Source: Bryoerythrophyllum caledonicum
Taxonomy: Eukaryota > Streptophyta > Bryopsida > Pottiales > Pottiaceae
Assembly (NCBI GenBank): GCA_963971425.1
Contig: OZ020525.1
Span: 372,001-436,000, forward strand
Length of the DNA stretch: 64,000 nt
Reading direction: 5' to 3'
Under the pieces are notes generated by a model. That model did no database searches, was not told where the DNA came from, and saw nothing but the letters and a program-made list of their open reading frames with translations. How positions within the stretch are numbered: the stretch's first letter is position 1; each line of letters opens with the position of its first letter. The translations under genes and the position numbers were made by a program. Shown here piece after piece: positions 1-59,610 of this stretch.

Positions 1-3000
1 GGTCTGGTTCCTCAAAGTTCGGGCTATGTAATGAAACTGAAAGATCGTGCGTCAGACTATGAGAATCGTTTTTCTCAGTCTGAGATACAGGGACAACCCT
101 CAGTGAAATTGGATGTTTCTCTTTCGAAGCCTATCATCATAATGCCTCGCGGAACTTATAGTACAGAGTAAGTCCAATCTACAGCTGACTATTTCGTTGC
201 GACTCATAAATCCTATTGCAACTATTTTCTTCGTTTTATATTCTTGTGGATGGCCATTATTCATAATCCCGTTGCCCATTTTGTCACGTGAACAGTTTCA
301 TGGAGCTCGATATTCTGCATATCAACATACGTAGCAGCTCGGAGTGGTTTGGCGGGGGAAAAGAGCAGCTTGCAGCCATTCGCTTGGAAACAATCACGCT
401 TGATGTAAATGTTTTTGCCATACATTTCTGAGAATGTAGAAATATTCCTGAGATTGGACTTCCTGGGATACCCATACTAAGATAGTTGTTTGTGAACTTG
501 GCCATGCAGGTTGAAGATGTAAGTCTAACAGTTGGTATTGGAAGCAATGTGGGGACTGAGATATTCGATAAAGCTAGAGGAATTGGCCTGGTAGTCAGAC
601 GATCCTTACGTGATCTTTGGCACAAGGTTCCAGCTATTGAAGCAACAGTCAAGGTGATCCGTTTGACTTGATTTTTCCTTTAAATTTTTTTATAATCGCG
701 CTGTTCTATCCCATTTGGCATCAATAAGCAAAGAATATGTCTAGGGAAAGGTGCTGCTTTACTTATTTATTCTCTACACGTCTTTTCTGGCAGATTAAAG
801 AGCTTCGGGCATCGCTCTCTGACAAGGAATATCAAGTTATCACTGAGTGCATAACAGAGAACATGGCTGAGACACCAGATTTGCCTCCTACTTTGTATGA
901 TAACACGCCGTCTGAGGAGGATAAACCGATTGCAGAGGATGAAGCTCAGAAGCTGGAAGAGGGTGCTGATGGTGCAGATGTTGTTACCGAGGATCCACAA
1001 GCAGAGAATGATCACGGCCAAGACGAGGGTGACTCGACGCCTGAGAAGCCCTACACTACCATCAAAGTTGGTGTCGGAGTCGATCTGGTTGAACTGGGCT
1101 TGTATATTGGTGGGACCAGGGATGCATCTCTTGCGACTCTGCAGGTTAGGCCTTTGTTAAAGGGGTCCTAGATCATTTGAAAGAATAGTGTCTACCCAAC
1201 AGTTTCAATGAGGGCTGAAAATGGAATAATTCTTTGCCTTGTGACATGTCACGGAAGGACACATTGGCTAATTTTTTTTCTGGACCGTGCAGGTGATTGG
1301 CGTGTGGGCATCATACAAATCAAATAATATTGAAGAATCAGTTGTGATGGCATCGCTAGAAAGGTTTAGTCTGAAAGATGAACGTGAAGGAACTGATCCT
1401 GAGATGCAGTACATGATTGGCAACGCTGATGATAAGGCACCGGACACTCTTGAGGGCGACCCTGGTCATGCCCAAAGAAACAAGAAAGAGAAGAATGAAA
1501 AGGACACCGCCGTTGGAACCTCCAGCGCATCACATGGGTGGGGGTATGATTTTTCACCCTTTTTCGTGGATGGTTGGTTCTGGTGCAAATTTTGTAAATT
1601 TTAATGTATTCTTACGTGTTAGGAATAGGCTTTCTGGTCAATAAGACAGGGGAAATGTTTGGTAATATGGCTCCTGAATGATCATGTTGCTCGAACGTGG
1701 GATTGGAGTTCTTGCAAGTAACTAAATCTGTCCATGTTGAAAATGCGCAGTCAAGGATTGACAATGCTTGTGGTCGATGCGAAACTCAGCCCAACTCAAC
1801 AGCAAGTTTCTCTTCGCATTCAGCGGCCCCGTGTAGTGGTTGCTTTTGATTTTCTGCTGGCAGTTGGCGAGTTCTTTGTTCCATCAATGCACGCGATGTT
1901 GGCGGAGAAGGGAGATGAGAATCCTTTGGACATGAAAAATGGGATGTTTCTGAACGACCCTGTATACAAACAAACGGTGAAGGAAATACGAATTTCGCCT
2001 AAGAAACCTCTGGTCGCTGATTACGAAGGCGTGCAAGAATATATTTACAACGGACAAGGAAACACATTGCGGCTTTTAAACCGAAATGATGATGATTTAT
2101 CCGTGTTTTCGCCAGAGGCGTTAATCTTCGTTGGAGATGGAAAGCGACTAATTTTCAGGAATGTGATTATTCAGGTATTTCTCCAGCGTTTTGTGAATCT
2201 TTTCATATACTAGTGTGTTTTAATGAAATAAGGCTGCATGTTTAGTTATATCTTAGCGTTTGAGTTAAACAATACCGATGAGTACTCCGCTGGACTGTCT
2301 TCTGAGTATACCTGTTATTCTCCGGACCATATTTATGGCAGAACGGCGACTACTTGGATTCGTCAGTTTATCTTGGTAGCAGTAGTAGCTATTCAGCATC
2401 TCGGGACGATGGAGTATTTATGGAAGGACCTGCTGAGGAGTCTGATACTTCGAGCACTATATCGTCGCCGGCAGCAGATAAGAAGGAAACCAAGAAAGAA
2501 GAGGCTGACAAACCTCCTGTGGAGATTCTCTTTGACTTGCAGGTATTATACCTATTTTCAAAACTAGAACATATGTCTCAGCCTTTTTTTATGTTTGTTA
2601 ACCGACATAACTAGGGAATAAATTTATAGTACGGTTCTCTGCAATTGGCATCTGTTTCTGAACACTGTATTTGACTCCATGAAGTAATGTTTGGCGTTTG
2701 AGCCAACTGACAGACTGTATTTGTATACTAGGCGATTGGTCCGGAGCTCACTCTTTATGACAGTATCAATCGACCATCCGGAGCTCTAGTCCTTCCCGAG
2801 AGGTACCTTCGAGCGAGGATGAATGTTTTTGCCAGGTAACTATTCAATTTCCGTCCTTGAACTTTCGTTTTTGTTCAGCTATATTAAAAGGCATGAGTTG
2901 TTTGGTAGCTTGTGAGATTGTATGAAGTTATTATTTAAGTTCTTAAAGAGTGATATCCTTTTCGAGTATAAATTTCGTGAATATTGCCGAATGCTTATGC

Positions 3001-6000
3001 AGATTTTCCATGAAGGGAGATGATATGGATCTGACAGCCAACTTAAACGGTCTGACGGTTGAATCAACAAGTGGCGTAAATGTCTTGGAGCCCTTCGATG
3101 CCTATGTGACCTATTCACAAGTGACAGGGAAACAGAACATCCATGTGCGCATGACAGAGATTAACACTAATTTCTCTTTCAGTATTCTCCAGCTCATTTT
3201 ACACCTCCAGGATGATGTAATGTCCATCATGCGTATTACATCCGAGCAGATTACAGTGGAATGCTCGGAGTTCGAAAAGATATGGGCAGATGATGGTAAG
3301 ATTGCGACTCCACCAGTTTAAGTTCTCAATTCTAGTTCTCTATTTTCTTCTGAGAGATCTTCAAATGATACTATGCTTCAATGTTCAATTTGTTCTCTAT
3401 CTCACGGTGGTGTCTTCTCTGGTGATTTCCAAATGGTAACTCTGAATTGAACCGTGATGTGCCTGCCAAGCAGACTCTGATATTGCAGCCGGTGGATCGC
3501 ATCTTGCTTTTTGGCGACCTCGACCACCACCTGGGTTTGCAGTGCTTGGCGATTGTGTAACACCCTTGTACGTCATTCATTTGAGACCGAATTTGAGTAT
3601 TTTCATGTGCAATGTCCTAGTGCGTTTCTGTGTTGTCTGCGTATGGAACAGCCTTATTAATTCACGTTGCGTACGGAACAGCCTTAATTAATTCACGTTT
3701 GTTATTGTTGTAGGAATGAGCCACCGGCAAAAGGCGTACTGACGGTTAATATGGCTTTAGTACGATCGAAGAGACCTACTGGATTTGAATGTGTATGGTC
3801 ATCCGACGACCTTGTTTCTAAGGGTTCCCTGAAGTCTACCGCAGATGGGAAGTCCTTCCAATCGACTGAACGCAGTAGTAAACAAGAATTGGATAATGCC
3901 TCGACTGGCACATCTGCTGCCGAAGAAGATGGAGAGGAACGAGGGTGCTGTGTCTGGTTACCAATTCCACCTGAAGGTTATGTGGCCATGGGTTGTATCG
4001 TTTGGAAAGGACAAGAAGAGCCTCCGAAGTCAGCAGCTCTTTGCGTTTTGGCTGCACTTGTTTCACCATGTTCCATGCGAGACTGTATCAATATTAAGGG
4101 ACACCAGAGGTGAATTCGATTTTCCCAGCAGCATTTTACAAGACCCTAATTTTAGGAACTGTTTGTGTGGGATCAGTCTTCGCAGAAAATTTTACTGTCC
4201 ACACCCGACTCTTATCTAAAGCTCTTATGTATTGGATTGCAGGACAAACGACATGGATTCTCAAAAGAAATGGGCATTTTGGCGAGCAGATAATTCGATT
4301 GGATCTTTCCTTCTGCAAATCGATCCCAAGGAATTGGTTCCACCCCAGGCCCATGCCCTCCGTCTTGCTATTGCAAATTATGGGCTATTTACTGTTAATG
4401 AGACAGTTCCAGGCTCAGATAATCCACAGACAAGACTGTCGCAATCGTTGTCGGCTATTGGTAAGTCGCTAACGAATAGAATCATTGATCTAACATAATT
4501 TGTGTCCAGTTTTGAATCTGTATCGTCACACTCAGGGTGGCTCAGTCTAATTGTGACCTTTTATTTTAGAAGAATATATTTTTGCGTGATCATCAGTTGC
4601 TGTATATTGTTTTTCATATCTCAAACTATCTAGGCTGGAGATAGAAGGCACTGTGTTTTCATAGTGTAGGTGCAGATATGAGTAAGTCTTCCTTTCTCTG
4701 AAAATGCACCGTCATGGCAGGTGAAGAAGATGCCGACACAACTGGGTTATTGACAGCGGTAGTCTCATCAGGTAGGATATACGAGAACGTGGGAAGATTC
4801 AAGTTGGTCTGGTGGGATAAAGGAAGTAGATCCCACGATGGGATCTCCATATGGCGGCCCATTGTGCCTCCCGACTGTGCAATGCTGGGAGACATAGCCG
4901 TGAAAGGGTAAATCCTTTGCCATTCATGTCGAATAAGTTTGGCGTCTTGTTTTAATACCAACCATGCACCATCTTTAACACGTTTCTGCGTTTTGTATGC
5001 AGATATGAGCCTCCAAGTACAGGTCTAGTGCTCCGTGACACAGAAGAGGGTGGCTTGATTAGGAAGCCCGAACGATTTCAAGAGTTGGCTCATGTATCTA
5101 AACAGAGGCATTTGGACGGTGTTTACTTCTGGATCCCAGTTCCTCCCCCAGGGTATTCAGTTCTTGGGTGCATAGCAGGCAAGAGCTCGAGTCCTGATAA
5201 GGACGTGATGGAGAACATCCGTTGTGTGCGGGATGACCTCGTCAGCAGCGCTAATTTTGCAGAATCTAGTCTCTGGACCACCAGGTCATTGAAAGCGAAT
5301 CAGCAACACCTCAGTATCTGGCCAGTTGAAAACGAGGTGCGGGAATGTTTTAGTATATGATTTTTAGCATTTAAGAATTCCATAAAAGAATGCAGTCAAT
5401 ATAAATCACCTCTTTATTTGTTTTCCTCACTTTTTACATTGTTCGTGTGTTGCAGGCAAACACCTTCTTTGTTAAGCCTGGAAGCTATGGAAGTCCCTCG
5501 CCTCAGAGTGCTCTTGGTTTGGCCGATCTGAGAAGACAATCACAGCCGGACAACCTGACTGTGGCTATGGAAGTCAAAAGTGTCTCTGCTACTATTTATG
5601 ACGATTTTGGTGGCTTTGTGAGTCCATTTCGTTGTGCTTAGTGATATCATGCTGGGATGAAAACTGAAAAAATGTTAATTATATGATCGGTATGCACAGA
5701 GTTGTGGTTTTATATTCTGTTGAAATTTGTATCTTACATGAAGGTATAGCCAAGGTAAACATCTTACAATCATCTGTTTCCGAGTACAGATGGCACCGCT
5801 GTTGGACTTGTCAGTTACCGGTCTACAGGCGATCTTGCATGGACGTATGGAGGCATTTAGCACCGTCATCAATTTCTCTTTGACATCCACTACATACAAC
5901 AGCAAGTTTGATGTTTGGGAGCCACTCATAGAGCCTTGCGATGCATTTGTCAGGTGCGTAACTTCAAATTTGAAATGTAATCTTGTTTATTAATTTCGTT

Positions 6001-25169: not shown

Positions 25170-25844
25170 CTTTGACAAATGAAACATCATGCTACAAACA
25201 ACATCAAAAAACACCAAAAACATTGGTATTCATAAATACTAAACCAAAATTAAAAAAACCACAAAAGACTAGTATTTATGAAATACTACCAACACAAAAG
25301 AAATACAACAGCTCCAAACACAATACAACTAATACACCTATCCCCAAAACCAAACATCTATCCCTCTCAAAATTCAAATCCTCAATCAAAAAAACTCCAA
25401 ACCAAACATACAAACGCCGAAAGATATAATCACACAAATCCCCAAACAACAAACCATCTACTACTACAACAAACCGCTTAGCCAACCACACATACAATTA
25501 TCTACGAAGCATCCAAAGCAACCCCCTATAAAATACACAATACCAACACTCCTCCAAAAATCACTAAAAACCTTTACAACCACCCACACCCAACCCCGCA
25601 CCCAATCTCGCGGCCAACCCCACACAAAAAATTTCAGACAAACCCCCCTCAAAACTAACTATAAACTTCCTATACAATTACCTTATCAACACTATACTAC
25701 ACAAGTCACTCAATTCCCGCCTCAAAATATCACACACTTGACTAGTCTACAACACATCACCAAATCAACATTTGATAATCACCAAACAGACCACATTACA
25801 CCACCATACTCAAAAAACCCCTCTCTAAAAAGAAACTACAAAAA

Positions 25845-26877
25845 ATGTTGCTCCTCTTTAGTGGAGATATAGAAACCAACCCAGGACCTATGCCCAAAAT
25901 CCTTCAAAACCACCCCACAATAAACAAAAACCGAGCCAAACTGTACTTCGTACCTGGCACCATTAAACTATACCTAGAATACACACACCTAACAAAACAA
26001 TTTGCACCATTACTAAAACCTCTACACCCAGAGCACGTTGAACATAATAACATATACCCCCACATCGCCCAATTCCTACAAACACTATCACATCACCCCC
26101 CTTTGCATATCCTATATGCTATCATAGTCACTATTAGCCCTTCTATAAACAAATGCAATACCTTAGTCTCAACATGGCCACAACTTAACACTACAAATAA
26201 CTGGACACACACCATTCTCTCAAAACTTACAACACTTTTGAATCCCCCGGAAAGACACATCCATACAGATCATGCATACACAAAATTTAAACATCTAAAA
26301 CAACACATAATCTATCCTAAAAAATCCATACATAAATCACTATATAACTACATACACAAACATAACACACCTCCAACAATCAGTATGATAAAAAACAAAT
26401 TCCCCTACATCTCAGACAAACTCGCAAGTCAATCATTAAAATGCTTGGACCCTATCCTAGAATACACACACCCCTCCCAAGAAAATAACTATTTCCCCCC
26501 CAACATGCCCAATAAACAACAATCAAAACAACACAAATCTCATCACCTGGAATGCAGCCTCTCTAAATACCACACTCCCTAGCATCCAAAACCTAATACA
26601 AAACTTTCAAATTGCACCAGGAATTATATGCATCCAAGAAACAAAAATAACAGCTACGAAATCCACGAACTATATCAAAAAATTATTTCCAGAATACAAA
26701 TTAATCTTTAACAATACACATAACATCACTAGGTGTGTGCAACAAAGAAAAATCCTAAACATCACAGTAGGACTCCTCACTCTTATAAACAAAAAATACA
26801 CATTTCCAGGGAATATTACAAAACTTTCAACCCCCTTCAACCCCCTTCAACATATCTCCATACCTACAAACAATAGA
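25845..26877 (+). pseudogene. LINE ORF2 N-terminal part: 2A-like motif plus endonuclease start
   Basis: The frame opens MLLLFSGDIETNPGP, matching the 2A consensus D-[VI]-E-x-N-P-G-P after a hydrophobic run. About 225 codons of unassigned sequence follow. After a frame change near 26510 the next frame reads NLITWNAASLN and IICIQETKI, the N-terminal motifs (N and the catalytic E region) of an APE-type LINE endonuclease. The endonuclease is cut by a CACTA-type element at 26878 and resumes at 29237. The strand is strongly A/C-rich. The copy is inactive. Confidence 0.75.
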
Positions 26878-47515: not shown

Positions 47516-48588
47516 AAGCCGAAGCATTCAGGGTGTTTCTGCAAGGCACTATTTGATGAGATCCCGGTAGAGAACAGGAAAGGGATTCCGCCCACCTACA
47601 ACAAGGAAACGGAGAGGATCAAGCAGCTATTTGTCATTGAGAAGGACCACATTTGACGCGATAGCTGGGAGGTGATGGAGGCGAGGGGCCTTATCCTCGA
47701 GCTGCATGGACCGGACTCGCCCATCGTACCGGCTGGACAAACCGGCCCCAAGCAGATACTGTACATACATTGCAACACGACGCACCAGAAGCACATGTTC
47801 AACCTCCACCGCAACCATGCATTGTACCAAGGGAAGGGGAAGGTGGGCATGAAGATGCCGTCATATGCCAATTTGGGCGTCAAGGATGTGGCAAACTTTG
47901 TGGCACGACTTCGGGAGTGCGCATCGGTGGAAGAAGCCATTTCAGTTTTCGCCACCATAGAGCCAATAGCCACGAAGAGGAGGCCTCGGAAGGCTGCCGA
48001 TAATGAGGAGAAATCGATCAATCGAGTCCCAATTAAGCGCGGCAAGAGGGTGGCACAGGCAGTAGTGGAGGGCCGTCCACAGAAGCGTACCGCGTTGGCT
48101 TCTCGGAAAAGACCTCGACCCCCGAAAGCGGAGTCCAGTGACGATACTTCTTCGTCGGCAGAGTCGGGAGGAGATCACAACATTGATCATGAGGCCGATA
48201 ACGTAGGCACTCTGGCTGTTTTCGCCGAGAAGGACGGTCTTTGGTCCGGAGATGATGCCTCCAAGAATTCCGGTGCCGAGAACCCGATATCGAGGGTCCG
48301 GAAGGCCGCACTGGCGCCGGCGCTCAAGAGCGATTCCTCCATCGTCCTTCGGAAGACCGAGTTTGCGAAGCAGGCTGTACCGAAGAAGTAGGTGGCAAAA
48401 GCTGAAGAGGCCACGAAGAAGACAAAAGCATCTTGGCCCTCAGCAATGGCGAAAAGGCTTACGGGATTTTCTGTGGAAGAGACCGCTATGGCGAGAAGGC
48501 CTCGATCCCCGCCAGCTTTACAACGGTTGAGAGAGACGAGTATTGCCGAGAGACCCTCCGACTCCAACATTGGCCCCAGGATTGCTAG
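47516..48588 (+). pseudogene. Host ORF of unknown family, 5' half, split by the 10-kb transposon
   Basis: One frame runs from about 47516 to 48588 with two stops (47654-47656 and 48389-48391). It contains GCFCKALFDEIPVENRKG, LILELHGPDSPIVPAG, FNLHRNHALYQGKGKVG and a long basic/serine-rich linker. At 48585 the frame enters CTAG and the transposon. It continues in the same frame at 58735 when the insert and one CTAG are removed. No known domain is recognised. It is probably an older mobile element. Confidence 0.55.
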
Positions 48589-48630
48589 GGCGTGAGCTAT
48601 GAGCCATGAGCCATGAGCGGTGAGCTGTGA
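48589..48630 (+). repeat. Left terminal inverted repeat
   Basis: GAGCYAT heptads follow the GGCGTGAGC start, ending at GAGCGGTGAGCTGTGAGC. It mirrors 58670-58730. Confidence 0.8.
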
Positions 48631-49446
48631 GCAGTGATAGTCACAAAAAAATACCCTATTTTTTTTAGTGTATAGTGGAGAATCGAGGAAAAATAGTAGT
48701 ATGAAAGTCTATATCCGTGGAAAAATTGAACAACCTATATATGATGTAATGCCTATACCCGTGTAAATATGCTTCTAATTTCATTGTGTTAGTATCTATT
48801 CTCATTTTTGTCTCACATTGGTCCCCGTATTTTGACAATTCTTTTTAGTACTATCAATTATAAGGTGATGTGATATGTGTTTTTACCATTTCATCCTTGT
48901 ATTTTTTAATATACTTGTTATTTATTTTTTCTATAATTATGGCCTTGCCTTTTATGATATAAATCAATTTGATAACAAATTCAATTATACATTATTGTTT
49001 ATTCTTTCTAAATTTTTTTTTGTTGCGTTCATGAAATTATCTATTTCTCTCTAACCTTTATCATTTTTTTAAAAACAATTATTGGTATAAAATTCTACTG
49101 CTTTGACTTACGTTTATATTAATTGTAGTATTTCGAGAGTCTATGAAATTTGATACTAACATAATGCTGTCTAGAGTTCACAAACTAATCATGTAACTTA
49201 TTTTTTATTATAAATTATGATATTTGCTATTTATCTTTCACAAGCTATGCTAATAACTATTGAAAAAATAAAGTATAGAGAATAAAATGGATAATATAAT
49301 GAATACACGTTACAAGTTTGAAGTTAGGAAGACAATAAAAACATAAAACTGAGTACTAAAAATGAAAGGAATACTGCAATGTAATAAACACATACAAAGT
49401 GAACAAAGAAAATTTAGAAATGAAGAAGTACATGACAATAGCAAAA
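48631..49446. other. AT-rich non-coding flank inside the transposon
   Basis: It lies between the left terminal repeat and the stop codon of the methyltransferase-like gene. No ORF or repeat is resolved. Confidence 0.4.
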
Positions 49447-51831
49447 TTAGAAAGTAGAATTAAAACTATCATCACTACCTTCGCTAGCCTCAATCGCTTC
49501 AATGTCTACAAACTGAACAATACGAGGGTCATAACGAGGAGTCTCTGACGATGGACTAGGAGATGGTAAAGTAGCTAATAATTGAGCTAAGTCTTCTATA
49601 TGCGAAGGAAGTAGATACGGTTTAGGAGGTGATTCGGCGTCCGCCATCAATCTACAATGAATCAAACATTAACGTCAACGCTGAACATTAAAATATTTAA
49701 AGAATGCAAGGAAAAAATAATTCACAACTTACTTACTCAAACGGTTTCGTTTTGCAACATGACGAATAGGAATGTCATCCTCCTCCAAGTCAATATCCGC
49801 TTGCGAAGATACAACAGTCTCTACCAATGGTGGCGCGTCTCGAAGTGGTGCAAGGATCACCTAAAAAATAACAGGATCCGCCTCAAAAGCAACCAAATGG
49901 CGACTTGAGCAGCGGCAAGCATGAATCGAGGCACCTAAATTTAAAAGGACAAAATATTAATCGAACTTTACATCATAAAGGATTTAAACATCAAACGTAT
50001 CAAAATTACCTGTAGAAGCATAGACATCAAGAATGACACCACCTGGCTTGGTTAGAGCTTGAATAAGAATTTGCAATAAAATTGGATCTTTCTCCCGGCC
50101 TCCTCTCCAAGGAACAATTCCATTCATGATTTGTGATGCTTCTGATACAAAGTTGAAGAGAACATCATCCTCGCAAGGTTGGTAGTGGCATCCAAGAGTG
50201 GTTGGTCTTGTTGAAAGGAGAACTCAGAACTTGATGGTTCCGAATTATGAATAAGGAGGAGGATGCGAAAACGTCGTGTCTACCCAAAAACAATAGTGTT
50301 GTTAAAATAAATATGAAAGAAAATAACATCATAGAAAGAGTAGAGATAGGGAAACACACCAAGATTGACTGGTTTGTTGGAGATGTCAATTGAAGCTCAT
50401 TGATGCCCCACCAATCTTTGATGATTTTGAAGTCATAAGTCTTTGCATATGTACGTACGTCTGCTCGAATGGTCATTGACTCAGGCATAAAGATAAGTAA
50501 AGATGCATGAATTTGCAAGTAGTAATGAGCGAATTCGAAGATAGCTTCTAATTCAGACACATTATACGTATTCCACTGTGGAATGTCATTCGTATGAGAT
50601 GAAATCTTCGGAACCGGTAAACCTTCGGGAATGTCAATAATGATGAGATCATGAAAATGAACACTGTAGATCAGGCGCCGAGTTCACATAGCTCGCAGGT
50701 TTGAAGTTCACGCGATTAGGCACCTCGTGCACAAGGGTCTCGGCACCGAGACACTTCGAAAGTGCGACTCAAGCAAACTCTCTATCTGATCGAAAACCTG
50801 TCGGCAACTCCCTGCTCCCCAACCTGGTGCGGCTCTTGAGTTACCGTAGTTTCTCAATGTTTACAACTGACCTGGTGCGGCTCTTTAGATTTTTGAACAT
50901 TGAATAACGGCTCCTAAACATTGAATAACGGCTCCTGAGATTCGTTACCCAACCTGGTGCGGCTCTTGGGATATGTTACCACCTCTACTCGTGAACATTA
51001 AAGCTTGTGAAGAATGAAAAGCTCCTAGTGAACGAGTTCGTCAGCGAACAATAGTCCTCATGATCCAGTACATTGATCGCCAAACAACATACACGTTAAG
51101 AAACCAACAGCTCCCGATAAAAGCTCCACTTGCAAGAAAGAACTGAAGATTTCCATACATCACCAAAAGAGTACCTCATACAACCAAACGAGATAGAACA
51201 GAACCGTCACCAGCCGAGACCTGCTAGATCTAGTCACGATAGCATAAGTCTATTCACGATTGAAAGTCACGGCACTGCCCTCGTGCGACGTTGGAAGCAA
51301 AGGTTGTGAGCAATGATGTACTGAAGGTCGAACCAGTGAGTGGTTCACCAAGATCTAGATCGTAATATGGTTGAACGAGAATATGACTCGTTGGACGAGA
51401 TCTGTTAGGTTGGATGACAATTGGTATCATTCTCTGGAATAATTCAGAGATACTCTAGACGGCAGTGCCTAGGTGATTTCCATTGTGGAAGGCAATCACC
51501 ATGGCAACATATCAAATATGCGTATTATACCGCCGTATTTACCGCGAACTCTCTGTCTTATACTAAACACATATCATCGTATAGTACGGTATTTGTAACG
51601 CCGGTTTATGTATAGCTGAATTTTCCAAATTTATTTTGCCCCAAGGTTTGTTGAAATTTACGAGATTTGAATATGTGATACCTATGTATTACCCTGGCGA
51701 CTTCCGTGCAATGCCTAGGTAATTTCCCCTGTGGACGTAACACACTCTAATGAAAAATATATAAATTGTCATGAGGTTCCTAAATTTGACCATTGCACAA
51801 GGAGTTCACGAGAATTTCCACAAAAAATTAG

Positions 51832-52600
51832 GGTCTCGGCACCGAGACACATAATACTGAGCTTTAAGAACTTAAAAGCATGAAGATTGACAACAAATGA
51901 CTAGGACCTACCACAAAATATGTCATAATTTTAAAGTATTCTCGGCACCGAGATACCTCATATTGAGCTCTAAGAATATGAAATAATATAGATTGGAAAA
52001 AAATGACTAGGACCTACCACTAAATATTTCACAATTATAAAGTGCTCTCGGCACCGAGACACCTCATATTGAGCTCTAAGAACTTAAAATCATGAAGATT
52101 GACAACAAATGACTAGGACCTACCACAATATATGTCATATTTTAAAGTATTCTCGGCACCGAGATACCACATATTGAGCTCTAAGAATTTGAAATAATAA
52201 AGATTGACAACAAATGACTAGGACCTACCACAAAATATGTCATAATTTTAAAGTATTCTCGGCACCGAGATACCTCATATTGAGCTCAAAGAATTTGAAA
52301 TCATCAAGATTGACAACAAATGAGTCAATGACTAGGACCTACCACAAAATATTTCATAATTTAAAAGTGATCTCGGCACTGAGATACTTCATATTGAGCT
52401 CTAAGAATTTGAAGTAATAAAGATTGACAAAAATTGACTAGGACCTACCACAAAATATTTCATAATTATATAGTGCTCTCGGCACCAAGACACCTCATAT
52501 TGAGCTATAAGAATTTGAAATAATTAAGATTGACAACAAATGACTAGGACCTACCACAAAATATTTCATAATTATTTAGTGATCTCGGCATCGAGACACC
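51832..52600. repeat. 106-bp satellite, seven units, each with a CTCGG/CCGAG hairpin
   Basis: CTCGGCACCGAG starts at about 51835, 51941, 52047, 52152, 52258, 52372, 52478 and 52584. Spacing is 105-106 bp apart from one 114-bp unit. Each unit continues ATACCTCATATTGAGCTC, AAGATTGACAACAAATGAC and TAGGACCTACCACAAAATAT. The hairpin core also occurs alone at about 50739, and degenerate forms occur at about 52708 and 52954. Confidence 0.9.
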
Positions 52601-52669
52601 TTGAAATTTTAGGAACGTGCCTAAAATCTTTATTGTCTTTCCAAGTCACACATGGTTCTTTAGGGGTCA
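52601..52669. mobile_element. Relic 3' end of the piggyBac-like family
   Basis: TTTTAGGAACGTGCCTAAAAT and a terminal TTTAGGGGTC match the end of the elements at 6964 and 42172. The TTAA has decayed and the rest is missing. Confidence 0.5.
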
Positions 52670-53715
52670 AAATTTAATGTCCTTAAAATGTATTTATGGG
52701 GAAGAGTGTCTCGGCCCCAAGACCCTCAAAGTCAACATCTAAAAATTCTGGAGATTGCAATCTAACACGTTGATTGCAAACATCAAATCCATTAACATCC
52801 AAGGAGAAATCAACATGAGCCGTGAGTATAAGAAGGCAATCGGGAGCAATAGACTAAGGGACCATGACCAACTTATTCAAACATCCAAAATTGGCAACAA
52901 CAACGCAAATTTTGAAGACAATCTTTGAATACAATTTCGTCCAAAATGATTGTCTCGGCAACGAGACCTGTAAAATCCAAGCAATCATGGTCATAAACAA
53001 AATCTCGAACCAGCATGGTTAGGTCATGTAGAGGCACCTCAGATCTTTCAGCAACCCTGTCATCAGCCATTGCCATTGACGCCGCTCCACTAATTGAGCT
53101 TGGCTACAACATAACAAAATGGAATCGTTGCGCATGTCAGTCCTAGAATTCCATCAAATTCAAATGATCAAACTAATCAATTCAATATAGTGAAAGAGAA
53201 GTTTTTGAAGTATATCTTACATTGATGCAACGCCCGAGAATGTTTGCCGTGGGATCGTCTTTTTCTTCTTCAAAGTGAGACACCTCTACGTCATTTCGAG
53301 CATTGTCTTCAAGTATCTTGTCTCCAAAATTAAGCGTTTTAACAATTGCAGTGCATGAAGAACTCGTCCTAGATCTAGTTTTTCTAGATTGCATTCGAGC
53401 CCTCTTAGAGTTTTTCTATCTGAAAAATATATCCGAGGCCTCTTTTTCTTCCTCTTCAACTTAGACCTAATAGGCGACCCTAAAGACTTCTCTTCTTCTA
53501 GCATCTGTAAAATCTTGTGTACATGCTACGATCAACAACACTCTGAACAAACCGATCCATTTGCAGCAGTTTGCAAGAACAAAATTTAAAACACTAGAAG
53601 GAAGGCCTTCGTCAATGTGTTCAGATATCACGACATATAGTTAGTGTTCAATTCTAATTTAGACAATGAATTTGAAATTAAAGAGTTCCATTTTAATTCT
53701 ATTTCAATTTGCATA

Positions 53716-54240
53716 AGATTGGATTAGTTTCCAGTCTATTTTCTTCTATCTAGTGACCGTGCCTTATTTATTGCTCTGCAATGGCGTCCAACAGTTTACA
53801 GTACAATCTTCACCAAACTTCTATTTCATTAATAGTACAATCTTCACCAAAACAAGCGTCATATATTTTCTTCTACTCAGGGACGGTGCCTTATTTATTG
53901 CTCTGCAATGGTGTCCTGTAGTTTATAGTACAGTCTTCACCAAACTTCTATTTCATTAATAGTACAATCTTCACCAAAACAAGCGTCATATATTTTCTTC
54001 TACTCAGGGACGGTGCCTTATTTATTGCTCTGCAATGGCATCCTGTAGTGTATAGTACAATCTTCACCAAACGTCTATTTCATTAATAGTACAATCTTTA
54101 CCAAAATAAGCGTCCTCTATTTTCTTCGACTAAAGGACGGTGCCTAATTATTTGCTCTACAATGGCGTCATGTAGCTTATAGTACAGTCTTCACCAAAGT
54201 TGCTAAACTTCTATTTCACAATTACCTCCGTCGTCTAAAC
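53716..54240. repeat. 127-bp tandem array between the two transposon genes
   Basis: GTGCCTWATTATTGCTCT-type starts lie at 53759, 53886, 54013 and 54140, an exact 127-bp spacing. Each unit holds TACAATCTTCACCAAA twice. The array sits between the divergently oriented start codons at 53504 (-) and 54556 (+), where both promoters must lie. Confidence 0.85.
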
Positions 54241-54555
54241 TTCATAAAATAATAGTCAGAAGATTCTTTAACAGTCAAGCTACATTGGTTTTCCTAATTC
54301 CTACTTCCACCAAGTACGATAACATAGTAACCCCCCTACTTTCAAATTTGTCGTCATTTCATAACTTACAGTATGATTTGGTGCCATATTGCTCGTCTCC
54401 TTCTCTTGTAGGTTCATCTCTTTTCTAGTTACCTCTACTCTTAGCGCAGCGTGAGAATGGCAACATTGAGAGCAGAGGGGCATCCTGTCCCAATCTGAAT
54501 ACCATTAGGATCTGATGGGTTTGCTAGAGTTACTTCTCCACTTCTAGCTATTCGT

Positions 54556-57500
54556 TTGGGCTTCAATCTAGATACTACCCATGTAGAAGAGGAGGTCTTA
54601 GATGTTGCTGGGATTTTATGCTACACCATGCTACAGCTCAGTTCAATTGTAGATGACTGCAAGGCTTGGTTTTTGAGGGAGGGATCATACAAAGTGATAG
54701 GTCTGAGTGAATCGCAAATGCAAGCTTCCACCGAGATACTCACACCAGGAAAATCCAACACTTCTACTGTGAAAGTTGAGAAGCAATCACCAACAAAGAG
54801 TGGACCGGATATTCATCACGCTTGGGGAGGGCATTGCACACCTCCCACAATTCATTTGGATGACAGCGATGACGACTGCCCTTTGGTGGACATCACTGCG
54901 TATACTCCTCCAGCCTTCAGCAAAGTGGCGCCCTCCCCATCAAGTCCTCTGGTGTGAGCGAGTACACCATCTTCCATGTCCCGTCCGCCCTTGCACCCTT
55001 CTACACAAGGCACTTCTTCTTCCATGTCCCGGCCACCTCTGCTTCCATTCTCCCAAGATCAAACAAGCGTTGTTGCATGTTTAAAGAGACTGGCCTCTAG
55101 GCCGGGATCTAAGAACGTATTGAAGAAAATTGACTATGCTGTCGTTCCTCACAAAAAAATTGAGTTCTTGCCCTCTACTTATAATGGTGACATCATATTT
55201 GAGTTGCCTCCCGCTTCGTTAAATGCTAGTTCTTCCAATGCTCGAAACATGCAAGGTATGGACAATCGGTACGACGGTCATTGCTGGTGTCTAACAAAGA
55301 CATCGAATATTTCAAATGACATGGGTCTTACCTTCCGTAGATCTTCATGTGGTGGACACTTGCGTTGTGAGAATCCAGAGTGTGATTATTTGAAGAGGCT
55401 CAATCGTGAAGATCCGTACAATGAGAAGGAGTGGGAGGGGACCACAACGATGCCTTTTGTGCCCGGAAGACCAATACCAAAGACCTCATCGTTGGTATGT
55501 AAGGTATGTAAGACTTTACCCAGTGTACTTGCTATGTGTCAGGCTGTCATTTACTACGTGCAAGGACCTCCTGAGATGACCCGTGCTTGTGTGCACATGG
55601 GCATTCATGATCATCCTGTAGCTTTTGGTATTTGCCGTGAGTCAGAGGCAAAAATTAATAGTCTATTGGGCGAGCATGTGGAGCGCAATCCTACAGGAAC
55701 AAATTTAGCGATTGCCATGTCAGCAAGCAAGGAATTTCTAGCAGAGTATCTTTTTCGACCCCAAGAGTCAGAGATGACTATGACTATGGAAGACATGAAG
55801 GACGTGATGGAGAAGTATACTAACTTGGCATCTCCAAATGTCAAAAATACCATTTCATCCTTCAAGCAAGTTGGACGTACAAGCGCAATGGACGGTATCC
55901 GCACAATGAGAGGTTGTACCACTTGGCCATTTGTCCAACGCAACATGTTTCCGGGTCAAGGAGGCGACAAGGACAAAGTTTTTGTCTTCAAGATGTGCGA
56001 GATTAGCCCTGGATCAGGAGTCGACCTAGTTTCACGCATGCAACCTGGTGGAGACCTACAAGACACATGGATCATGTTTGATCATGTAAAGCGGGTCAAG
56101 AATTGGACCACCATGGCTTGCCATGTGTACGACTCTCGGTACTACAGAGTTATGACTGTAGCAGTTTGCGACATGCAATCTGAAGACTCAGAAGCCCAAT
56201 GCATCATGTGGAGGAGCATCAACGAAGTTATGGGGAGGCACGGGGTCCAGCACGTCAACTTCAAAGGTTTTATGGCGGATAGCGCAGGAGCAAATTGGAA
56301 TGCTGTACGGACGGTCTATGGTTCAGGTAATCCTCAAGAGGTAATGGTAGATCGAGAACGCACATGTCTACTTCATTGGACAACATCCATGAACCGCCAC
56401 ACGGACAAGTATATCAAGAGCGAGTTCCAAGACCAGCACTGTCTTCTGTGCAAGCAATATAAGGATGCCAAGAATTTGACAGACTCTGAGATACGTTACC
56501 TTGCCATTAGAGCTTGAAGGCATTCTTGTGGTGCCCAAAATGATGAGGCCCTCAGACAACTTGACCAGTGGCTTGCCTTTTGGCATTACCGCTATCGCCA
56601 ATGGGGAGCATCTATGGAATTGGTATGAATTGTATCATTTTTTATTATTATTTCATTTCAATTTTTGGTCCAAACAACCATATAAGTGACGTTGTGATTT
56701 GTATTACAGAATCTCACAGATGAAGAGATGGCGGAAATGCCATCCTGTAATTTGGCGGAGACTGTCCACAATCGTTGGCTTCAACAATCAGGGAATAGAG
56801 GAAATGACCTATACGATGCTACGGTGGACGACTTTGTTCGTGCGTTTATGCAATGCACAAACTATTATCACTTTTTAAAAGGAGGGCGATCATGGACCGG
56901 CCCTTCCAAGCATGAGTTGCGAATGAGGCTTGCCCAATGGACTGGTAAACACGAAAAGGTGATTGAAGCCATGGAGAGCATACTGGAGGCCAAGGAGTGG
57001 TGCACACGCACTCCTCACTTTGAAGGAGAAGAAGTGTTTGGCTCCAGCAAACGAAAGCTTGATGAACCATTTGGTTCAGACCTTGATAGTCATCGCCTTG
57101 ATAAAATAAATTTCTCCCGTCCGAAGGCCTCTACAAGGACCAGGATGGGACGTCAAGACAATTCTTCTGCAGCGACAGCGTTGCTTCCCACCTCTTCATC
57201 TTCATCTTTGGGTGATGTGAAGCTTGTGTCCTCACCGTTGTCTCCATCTAAAGCATCTATAGGAGTGAAGCATGTTTCAAGTGTTCAAGAATCTAAGTGT
57301 GACATACAGAAATGGCATATTACAAGGCTCCCAAAGGCTTCCGGTAAGTGTTGTCATGCTAAACAGGCTAGGACGGGTATAACGTGCACCGAGAAGATTG
57401 TGCGTTTGGGGAAAAGCACTCCTGCTCCTACATACACCGGGCTCCTCCATGTTCGAAGACTCTTGAAGGACCAAGTTACCGAGTTCTTCCATTGCCCGGA

Positions 57501-58152
57501 TGACATTGAAAGGTGCGTAAAGGGAACTAAGCGGAAGTGGGTGAATCACCGTCCGCTTGTTTCTGATGTATGGCCTGTGATGAAGGACACCAACCTTACC
57601 AAGGCTGAGATTCTCAGGCTAGAAGAGGTAGGATTTCAACTAGAAGAGCGACGGGAAGTGTCACCGAGGCGGCTCTTTGGAGATGCTGTCAATCCTATTG
57701 CGCACGCTGCATCCGTGCCTACACCTGCAGATGCCGACTCTTATCCAACATTGCGTGAAGGCCGCCGTACCCGTCGTCAGGAAAAGGTTTCCGTGAAGCA
57801 AAAAAATCGATGGGCATCAGCGGACAACCTCAACGTCCGCATCAACTCCATCTCAATGCTTCCCTACTCCGCCCTCGGATGCATCATTGTACTACAATAA
57901 AAGAAGGGGCAGAAGACGAGTGAATATCGCCTTACCATTGGCCCTCTCCCTAATTGCACTTGCGGTGACTTCAAGGACATGGTGGTTCAATCCAAGAAGA
58001 GAGGTGCTTGGTACCATTGCAAGCATCTCTACTATATTTTTCGAGTGGTATGCAAGCTTGATTGCGAGGACGATGCTTTTGTCCATGCTGCTACCTTAAG
58101 CTTCAACGAGATCAAGAAAGTGCTGGAGAGTGGTGTCTTGAAGCTTCTATGA
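54556..58152 (+). pseudogene. DDE-type transposase with GCM/FLYWCH-like and SWIM zinc fingers
   Basis: One frame spans two exons (54556-56622 and 56710-58152, GT-AG, phase 0) with three stops: TGA 54955, TGA 56515 and TAA 57898. The N-terminal part has a Ser/Pro-rich region. A Cys/His cluster follows, HCWCLTKTSN with SCGGHLRCENPECDYLKR, of the WRKY-GCM1/FLYWCH kind. The catalytic candidates are WIMFDHVKRVKNW (D), FMADSAGANWNAVRTVYG (D) and VDRERTCLLHW (E) in a MULE-like context. The C-terminus, beyond the third stop, has NCTCGDF ... AWYHCKHLYYIF, a SWIM finger (C-x-C-xn-C-x-H). The copy is only lightly damaged. Confidence 0.75.
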
Positions 58153-58730
58153 TGTCTAACATCGAGTATAAATTCTATTGCTATATGAATCAATAATATT
58201 TATTGTCCAATTCATATGGATAGTTGCTAAATGTTGTTAGTATATGGATAATGTTCCTTTTATTTGTTATAAAATAGAAAGATATTTTTATTCTTATAAT
58301 GTAGTTCATTTTGTTGTCTTATCCGCATCTACTTCACTTGTATCTCCATCACTTTTACAATACTTCACCAACTTAATTATCTACCATCGTATTATAAAGT
58401 GTACACAAAATAAGAGTTTCCTATGTATAAAAACCCTCTCTAGGTCCTAAACTCGTAGTGCCTACAATCTCTCCAATACACCTTCAACTTTGCGAAATAG
58501 GAAGACCCAACACTACTTGAATTTGAATGCTACTGGACCTGAAATATTGTAGTCTATTCTAATTGCACGGTTATAGGCACTAAAAATTTACTAAAAATAT
58601 TTTAATCATAATTTTTTCTTACATGCATATCATTATTTTTATTTTAAAAAACCTATTTTTAGTAAATCAGAGCTCACCGCTCATGAAATCTCCGCTCATG
58701 GCTCATGGCTCATGGCTCATGGCTCACACC
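58153..58730. other. AT-rich flank and right terminal inverted repeat
   Basis: After the transposase stop there is no gene. From about 58670 the sequence is built of GCTCATG heptads (CTCACCGCTCATG, then GGCTCAT repeats) ending CTCACACC at 58730. Confidence 0.7.
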
Positions 58731-58734
58731 CTAG

Positions 58735-59610
58735 CGTCGTTGACATTGGCCCGCCGAATACGTTGCGCGAATGGCCCCCGACCTCCGCCCAGATGGAATT
58801 TCGACAGCCGCTAACATTGGCCACGATACTTCGGGCAGGCTCTAATGAAGGTGCGAATCCCGATAAGCGCCTTATTCTGCCGGCCAAAAGTACCAGGGAG
58901 CAAGATTTGGAGTTGGAGAGGGCCGAAATGATACGGGAGGTGCAGGAGGACCCTGAGCGCCTTTTCCCGCTTCAGGGAAAGCTCTCCCCCGAAAGGAAGG
59001 TACCGATAACGCCGCTGTACCTACTCCTCCAGCATGGTCTGCTCGACAGGGACATTATGGACATTTTAGGGTCCGAAGATGAGCTGTTGAAAACCGTCTT
59101 GTGTATAGTGGAGACTGGAGGCCACCAGGGCAGGTTCAACCACGCTCTCGGTGCCTGCATTTCCGAAGGGGTCGGCCTCGCCGATAACTTGGTTTCGCTT
59201 CCACAGTTGACAACCCTTTGCAATCTGACAAAGAATCCCGATGGTGGTATTGCGCAAGGGGTCTGGATACAGGCAGTGAGAGGAACGTGGGCATACATGA
59301 CGCACGAGAAGGAGTGCGTCGAGTATGTCGCGAGGATGACAGCCGATGTGGAGAGCACAAAGCGGTTAAGGGAGATGTTTGTCGCGGTCGAGATTCAGAA
59401 ATTTAATGCGGAAAAGGCGGTGGAGAGAGAGGCTATTCGATGAGACTTCAACAACTTCTTTGGCTATTGCGCTATGAACGAGATTCTTCAAGCATTGCTG
59501 CCTCCACTGCCATAGACGCACAACATTGACAAGGCTCGAGAGGTCGTGCACCGTCTAGCGCGGATCAAAATCGAGAGTGTCCCATCACCGGCTCCAGCGG
59601 TGCTATTGAA
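58735..59610 (+). pseudogene. Host ORF of unknown family, continuation after the transposon
   Basis: The frame continues from 48588 with VVDIGPPNTLREWPP, then a helical region: REQDLELERAEMIREV, LYLLLQHGLLDRDIMDILG and CIVETGGHQGRFNHALGAC. Stops occur at 59441-59443 and about 59512, with matching codons beyond. No domain is recognised. Confidence 0.5.

Follow-up and report, generated by a model that had tools for sequence, protein, structure and literature searches.

A moss DNA transposon family pairing a SWIM-type, Mutator-like transposase with accessory ParB-like and methyltransferase-like exons, the latter of altered motif IV

DNA transposons with accessory proteins that combine a ParB-like and an N4/N6-type methyltransferase domain are known from brown, green and red algae (PMC12477816; this and the other articles cited by accession were available in part, and statements about them refer to those parts). 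In Sola1-1_Ec32 of Ectocarpus, an element of 21.5 kb, a gene on the opposite strand encodes a 1104-amino-acid (aa) protein with both domains (PMC12477816). Here we describe a transposon family of the moss Bryoerythrophyllum caledonicum, represented by one copy in a stretch of 64,000 nucleotides of assembly GCA_963971425.1 (contig OZ020525.1, positions 372,001 to 436,000 of the forward strand), and this whole stretch is called the window below. Like the algal systems it is a DNA transposon with an accessory gene opposite to the transposase strand and with an amino-methyltransferase-type domain, to which a putative ParB-like one, read by eye, would be added. It differs from Sola1-1_Ec32 in that the carrier is SWIM-bearing, Mutator-like and flanked by 10-bp duplications, and in that the catalytic motif is replaced in all 44 copies read. 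The green and red algal cases (Iyer 2011; Petroll 2025) are compared only as cited in PMC12477816. An initial annotation of the window, made from the sequence alone, knew of no established family joining such a transposase with an amino-methyltransferase-like gene; this does not hold in view of the algal accessory proteins, by which the kind of pairing is already known. What appears to be new is the SWIM-type Mutator-like carrier, the large expansion and the altered motif IV.

Mutator-like elements (MULEs) have target duplications of 8-11 bp, a SWIM finger and extra open reading frames that are sometimes antisense (PMC6446971), and accessory genes with epigenetic roles are described among them (PMC6446971, PMC12730594). 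The present family shares the duplication length (about 10 bp in all seven judgeable copies) and the antisense extra gene with MuDR, VANDAL and the SET-carrying MULEs of Phytophthora, and it has a putative SWIM finger. It is unlike MULEs as described in these two sources, where no amino-methyltransferase is named (the word 'methyltransferase' is absent from the main text of PMC6446971), and its transposase is without a Pfam MULE match. DNA methyltransferases also occur in other eukaryotic mobile elements, namely DIRS retroelements with Dam-like methyltransferases and the DNMT-bearing retrotransposons of dinoflagellates and Klebsormidium (PMC5890265), but those are retroelements and their enzymes are Dam-like or C5 enzymes. 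Both domain types are found together in the ParB-methylase Bce_0392, which holds a ParB domain and an adenine methylase in one protein and whose ParB part nicks DNA non-specifically (cited in PMC5512222); that protein is bacterial, and the ParB label here is eye-read. No other account of the pairing on a SWIM or Mutator-like transposase was found among the titles and abstract openings listed from the open-licence literature, and the available parts of PMC6431247 and PMC12695648 held nothing bearing on it. Among viral contigs, three stretches fitted a pattern for relatives and none was confirmed.

The window copy is a dead, internally deleted member of a large two-gene DNA transposon family. 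The initial annotation had described an element of 10,142 bp (48589..58730) with heptad-repeat termini and two divergent genes. The termini and the two genes are confirmed by inverted arms, a 10-bp target duplication and open frames; the element is real, and its extent has to be corrected, as the true ends lie slightly outside, at 48577-58742 (10,166 bp). The left end starts CAGGATTGCTAGGG at 48577 and the right end closes CCCTAGCGTCGTTG at 58742. The inverted arms, with heptad repeats, are 47 nucleotides long (48584-48630 and 58689-58735) and 87% complementary, and the perfect duplication ACATTGGCCC stands directly outside both ends. When the flanks are rejoined without the element, an unbroken 291-aa frame runs over the junction. 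Both ends were compared in eight copies, one of which was not judged since its right end lay outside the stretch compared. The duplication was private to the copy in each of the other seven, where five duplications are exact over at least 10 letters (one reaches 12) and two show a single mismatch in 10, the latter as read by eye.

A close sibling on contig C7 has the same ends 15,277 bp apart, and the window copy aligns to it blockwise. About 4.6 kb of this sibling, around 50651-50659 of the window, is absent from the window copy. Within this segment the sibling has additional open frames, on the same strand as the left gene, one of them with a ParB-like pattern, so that this exon was invisible in the initial annotation. 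Both genes of the window copy are broken, the transposase by premature stops that are absent in the C7 sibling and the methyltransferase-like exons by frame shifts and interruptions.

How often the genes travel together was counted in the genome (437 Mb) from several sides. With a left-end probe, suited to the close family only, 47 matches were obtained (best 40 of 114 candidates); they come down to 40 main places once 7 short fragments are dropped. Inside 38 of the 40 scored left ends a methyltransferase-like exon is found, 1.4-2.75 kb inward and on the opposite strand, as counted with 122 methyltransferase-exon rows. Protein searches were scored for the best 83-150 of about 1,700-3,300 candidates, and the transposase search for the best 83 of 2864 first-look candidates. 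These 83 fall into four identity groups. The ParB-like exon was counted in all four groups and the methyltransferase exon in two. Of the 14 close transposases, 12 have a ParB-like exon upstream in divergent orientation (the window copy and a copy on the small contig C54 do not), and so do 26/31 at 76-81% identity, 19/20 at 72-75% (best 22 ParB-like rows; one copy was read directly) and 12/18 at 53-55%. Overall this layout is present in 69 of 83 scored transposases, where chance placement would be about 0.4% per copy. In the 72-75% group the exon had at one point seemed to be missing (0/20 among the matches listed), which was overturned by a search with the group's own exon. A second, overlapping transposase list (best 113 of 2415), set against 254 ParB-like places, shows the divergent upstream layout for 63 of 113; for 1 the exon is on the same strand, and for none is it downstream. 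Of the 45 transposases at 76% identity or more, 38 have the methyltransferase exon itself at most 25 kb upstream in divergent orientation (70 methyltransferase rows used). These figures, together with the left-end counts, refute the possibility that copies of the termini carry the transposase and never the methyltransferase-like gene, which the initial annotation had named as the outcome that would speak against the pairing.

Family identity and pairing are almost certain. Seven transposase rows are open over 360 aa with equal scores, the query included (best 113 of 2415 candidates), as are four ParB-like exons with equal scores and open frames, again including the query (among the matches listed). 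Such near-identical open copies suggest a recent spread with the partner exons aboard. Among the matches listed, no ParB-like partner accompanies seven transposases that score identically and have frames of 757 aa (C1:9569278, C3:31115823, C3:34008645 and others); they may have a divergent partner, or may form a subfamily without one.

The methyltransferase-like exons lie on the minus strand, where the rows of the genome search map to 49732-50665. Joined by eye, the window exons match PF01555 with an E value of 4.2e-5 and 24 bits, the curated cut-off of 26.7 not being reached. In a genome-wide search with PF01555, eight places are above the cut-off (best 150 of 235 candidates), and for four of these eight a ParB-like exon is listed on the same strand, 3.4-3.8 kb upstream. 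One of the four (L097, protein P0001, 57 aa) matches PF01555 at 1.6e-7, phrog_67 'DNA methyltransferase' at 2.2e-8 and the adenine methyltransferase 5hfj in PDB at 4.5e-4. Beta-class amino-methyltransferases have motif IV first and then motif I. The same order, motif IV (DVPEG) before motif I (DVSVATG), is seen in one 237-aa open reading of the 78% group, with motifs assigned by eye. It is shared with the PDB entries 5hfj/5hek ('DpnA') and 6pbd (CcrM), which we take to be beta-class amino-methyltransferases and with which the C-terminal SAM (S-adenosylmethionine) region aligns. The C-terminal part of the partner resembles the beta-class amino-methyltransferases, and the gene has its origin in DNA-methylating enzymes of bacterial type. 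The permuted amino-methyltransferase-like protein of the initial annotation stands, given this motif order, the relation to PF01555 and its recurrence with the transposase.

Unlike in the beta-class enzymes, DPPY at motif IV is replaced here, mostly by D-I/V-P-E/D-G. Among 44 copies read, DPPY occurs in none, (D/N/S)PP(Y/F/W) is absent and the aromatic residue is gone in all; the variants are DIPEG (28), DIPKG (4), DVPEG (3), DIPDG (3) and six single ones. Partner-gene copies at C7:25541665, C4:12907793, C3:25317 and similar places have a methyltransferase region above the Pfam cut-off and nearer to bacterial enzymes, and may still have DPPY. Motif I is altered too, reading DVYASTG in the window, DVSVATG in the 78% group and DLNASTG in L097.

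The ratio of nonsynonymous to synonymous substitution (dN/dS) of the motif IV exon is 0.09-0.25 in 17 of 20 measurable pairs (31 pairs computed from hand-picked copies, stop codons skipped, pairs not independent). This exon evolves under purifying selection, and the protein therefore seems to matter to the element.

The ParB-like exon and the methyltransferase-like exons follow each other on one strand, the latter further downstream. In the C7 sibling the ParB-like pattern reads IPLCRLIPL...GNHRFTAWW, and IPLCR...GNHRxxAW is conserved in three sequences from three groups, with G-N-H-R invariant. The exon is very abundant, having about 1,700-1,800 first-look candidates in the genome, and a search with the exon of the 72-75% group lists 128 further ParB-like rows at 67-78%, of which roughly 75 are stop-free (counted by eye).

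The transposase frames lie on the plus strand (54499-58152), divergent from the methyltransferase-like exons. From the initial annotation, which called the protein a DDE-type SWIM transposase, the SWIM pattern CxC-x18-CxH is indeed present in the C-terminal part, and the label 'DDE-type' rests on the motifs MADSAG and CLLHW, both read by eye and set against the DDE triad and C/DxxH motif of MULEs. When the sibling's exon is shuffled, a pattern of the CxC-x18-CxH kind arises in 59 of 5000 cases. An N-terminal zinc-finger-like region, likewise eye-read, is presumably WRKY-GCM1-like. KDZ/Zisupton and other superfamilies with accessory genes were weighed first; the 10-bp duplication and the SWIM pattern fit Mutator-like elements better, which the transposase and duplication resemble. 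An AlphaFold2 model of the window transposase from single sequence had a mean pLDDT (predicted local distance difference test) of 31.9 and was not used.

A number of results weigh against the reading of these elements as a two-gene family with a ParB- and methyltransferase-like accessory protein. Among the matches listed, 14/83 and 50/113 transposases are without a partner. Seen from the partner side, a ParB-like exon lies within 6 kb upstream on the same strand for at least 30 of 122 methyltransferase-exon rows (part of 286 matches, nearly all of the motif IV exon), and a downstream methyltransferase exon is found for at least 30 of 254 ParB-like places (distinct places out of 286 rows, duplicates and fragments dropped by eye). 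These partner-side counts, which bear on the other adverse outcome named in the initial annotation (the gene occurring mostly outside such termini), are lower bounds because only the best candidates were scored; copies of the partner gene may also exist outside such elements. No Pfam transposase model matched the transposase in profile searches up to E 1 and up to E 10, nor was the Pfam SWIM model reached despite CxC-x18-CxH, and as no curated model matched we use the term 'Mutator-like' and withhold a formal placement among MULEs. For the ParB-like exon, the PF02195 (ParB) profile has 0 matches in the genome and neither Pfam, PHROG nor PDB gives support, the ParB-like sequence A1 having two unrelated PDB matches at E 0.22 and 0.69, so that the ParB label is eye-read. 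P0001 also matches mRNA cap methyltransferases in PDB (E 0.0027-0.0074), and part of its signal is thus general to the SAM fold. In the 78% group, the intact methyltransferase reading is without a match in Pfam, matches PHROG only with an entry of unknown function and reaches CcrM only at E 1.1; it is assigned to the family by similarity to other copies, and its genome search returns places found with the window protein. Finally, the remaining dN/dS values are 0.43 for one distant pair and 0.45 and 0.70 for two very close pairs.

The explanation that we consider best overall, with a probability of roughly 0.6, is a two-gene transposon with an accessory protein of the SAM-fold recognition type. 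The transposase would bind the heptad arrays and move the element in the manner of Mutator-like enzymes. The accessory exons would form one protein, a SAM-fold DNA-recognition (or altered-chemistry) factor with a ParB-like nicking or binding module, which may aid transposition or resist silencing. Since the ParB-methylase of PMC5512222 nicks DNA, as far as that source describes it, a nicking role is a fair guess. That the protein acts on the element's own DNA is probable, and so, judged from its motifs, is the prediction that it carries out no conventional amino-methylation. With motif IV replaced in all copies read and the exon under purifying selection, SAM-fold recognition or altered chemistry is the likelier role and stands above an ordinary N6-adenine or N4-cytosine methylase, to which we would give less than even odds. 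We put forward more tentatively the full version of this scenario, in which a bacterial-type ParB-methylase has turned into a non-methylating, selected partner in transposition or anti-silencing, with a D-I/V-P-E/D-G pocket that reads or binds DNA or SAM, alongside a SWIM-type transposase.

The pairing could be accidental, the gene being captured host cargo or part of a nested, unrelated element. MULEs often capture genes, and the window copy is broken. For the scored copies this is contradicted by the one layout across four groups (69/83), the left ends with the gene (38/40) and the selection on the exon, so that it appears highly improbable. An active N6-adenine or N4-cytosine methyltransferase could instead mark the ends of the element, as Dam does for IS10, with D-I/V-P-E/D as a working variant. 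The SAM-binding region over the Pfam cut-off at eight places, the retention, in most of the 44 copies, of the leading acid of motif IV and of the proline at its third position, and the purifying selection would all agree with such an enzyme, and epigenetic self-modification has been proposed for similar proteins (PMC12477816). Yet the aromatic residue of DPPY/SPPY is missing in 44/44, motif I too departs from its classical form, and in bdelloid N4CMT the change of SPPY to APPA (Ser and Tyr to Ala) abolishes activity (PMC8885841). This alternative is therefore unlikely; with DPPY absent from all copies read, the analogy to Dam and IS10 drawn in the initial annotation is weakened and self-methylation of the element is doubtful. 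Somewhat less unlikely, by analogy, would be an anti-silencing factor against host marks that is itself non-methylating, like the plant VANDAL protein. It fits a SAM-fold DNA-recognition protein, MULEs commonly carry accessory genes in antisense (PMC6446971), and in VANDAL families the elements themselves encode a regulator of their silencing (PMC12730594).

Features of the element in the window (positions are those of the window)
Feature	Position	Strand	Basis
Left target site duplication, ACATTGGCCC, 10 bp	48567..48576		identical to 58743-58752
Left terminus, TGAGCNA-type heptads	48577..48637	+	inverted repeat, tandem repeat, copy boundaries
SAM-binding (motif X/I) exon remnant of the beta-class amino-methyltransferase-like gene	49732..50208	-	search rows 49732-49947 and 50008-50208; PF01555 match of joined exons
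Exon with motif IV of the methyltransferase-like gene (DPPY replaced by D-I-P-E-G)	50345..50683	-	open frames, genome search
Internal deletion breakpoint, with a loss of about 4.6 kb relative to the 15,277-bp sibling, ParB-like exon included	50651..50659		alignment to L069/L070
106-bp tandem repeats within the element	51834..52601		tandem repeat; also in 15,277-bp sibling
127-bp tandem repeats, upstream of the transposase	53737..54198		tandem repeat
Transposase exon 1, cut by premature stop (single 727-aa frame in C7 sibling)	54499..56517	+	open frames, sibling comparison
Transposase exon 2, cut by premature stop (single 484-aa frame in C7 sibling)	56698..58152	+	open frames, sibling comparison
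SWIM-type pattern CxC-x18-CxH	57955..58026	+	pattern read
Right terminus with heptads	58667..58742	-	inverted repeat, tandem repeat, copy boundaries
Right target site duplication, 10 bp	58743..58752		exact match to left

Elsewhere in the window, a strand-skewed region at 20-40 kb holds two further frames on the plus strand. A 554-aa frame at 36464-38128 matches RNase H (PF00075, 3.3e-13) in a retroelement-like region and has a weak match below the cut-off to the PCIF1 WW-domain model PF12237 (7e-5). The frame at 25779-26582 holds SGDIETNPGP, which we take to be a 2A-like motif.

For transposon accessory proteins of this class, which have hardly been studied, the family brings a further type of carrier, and its many open, near-identical copies provide material for work on them. 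It suggests that a methyltransferase partner can be selected without the classical catalytic motif, and whether such a protein marks, protects or recognises its own element becomes testable.

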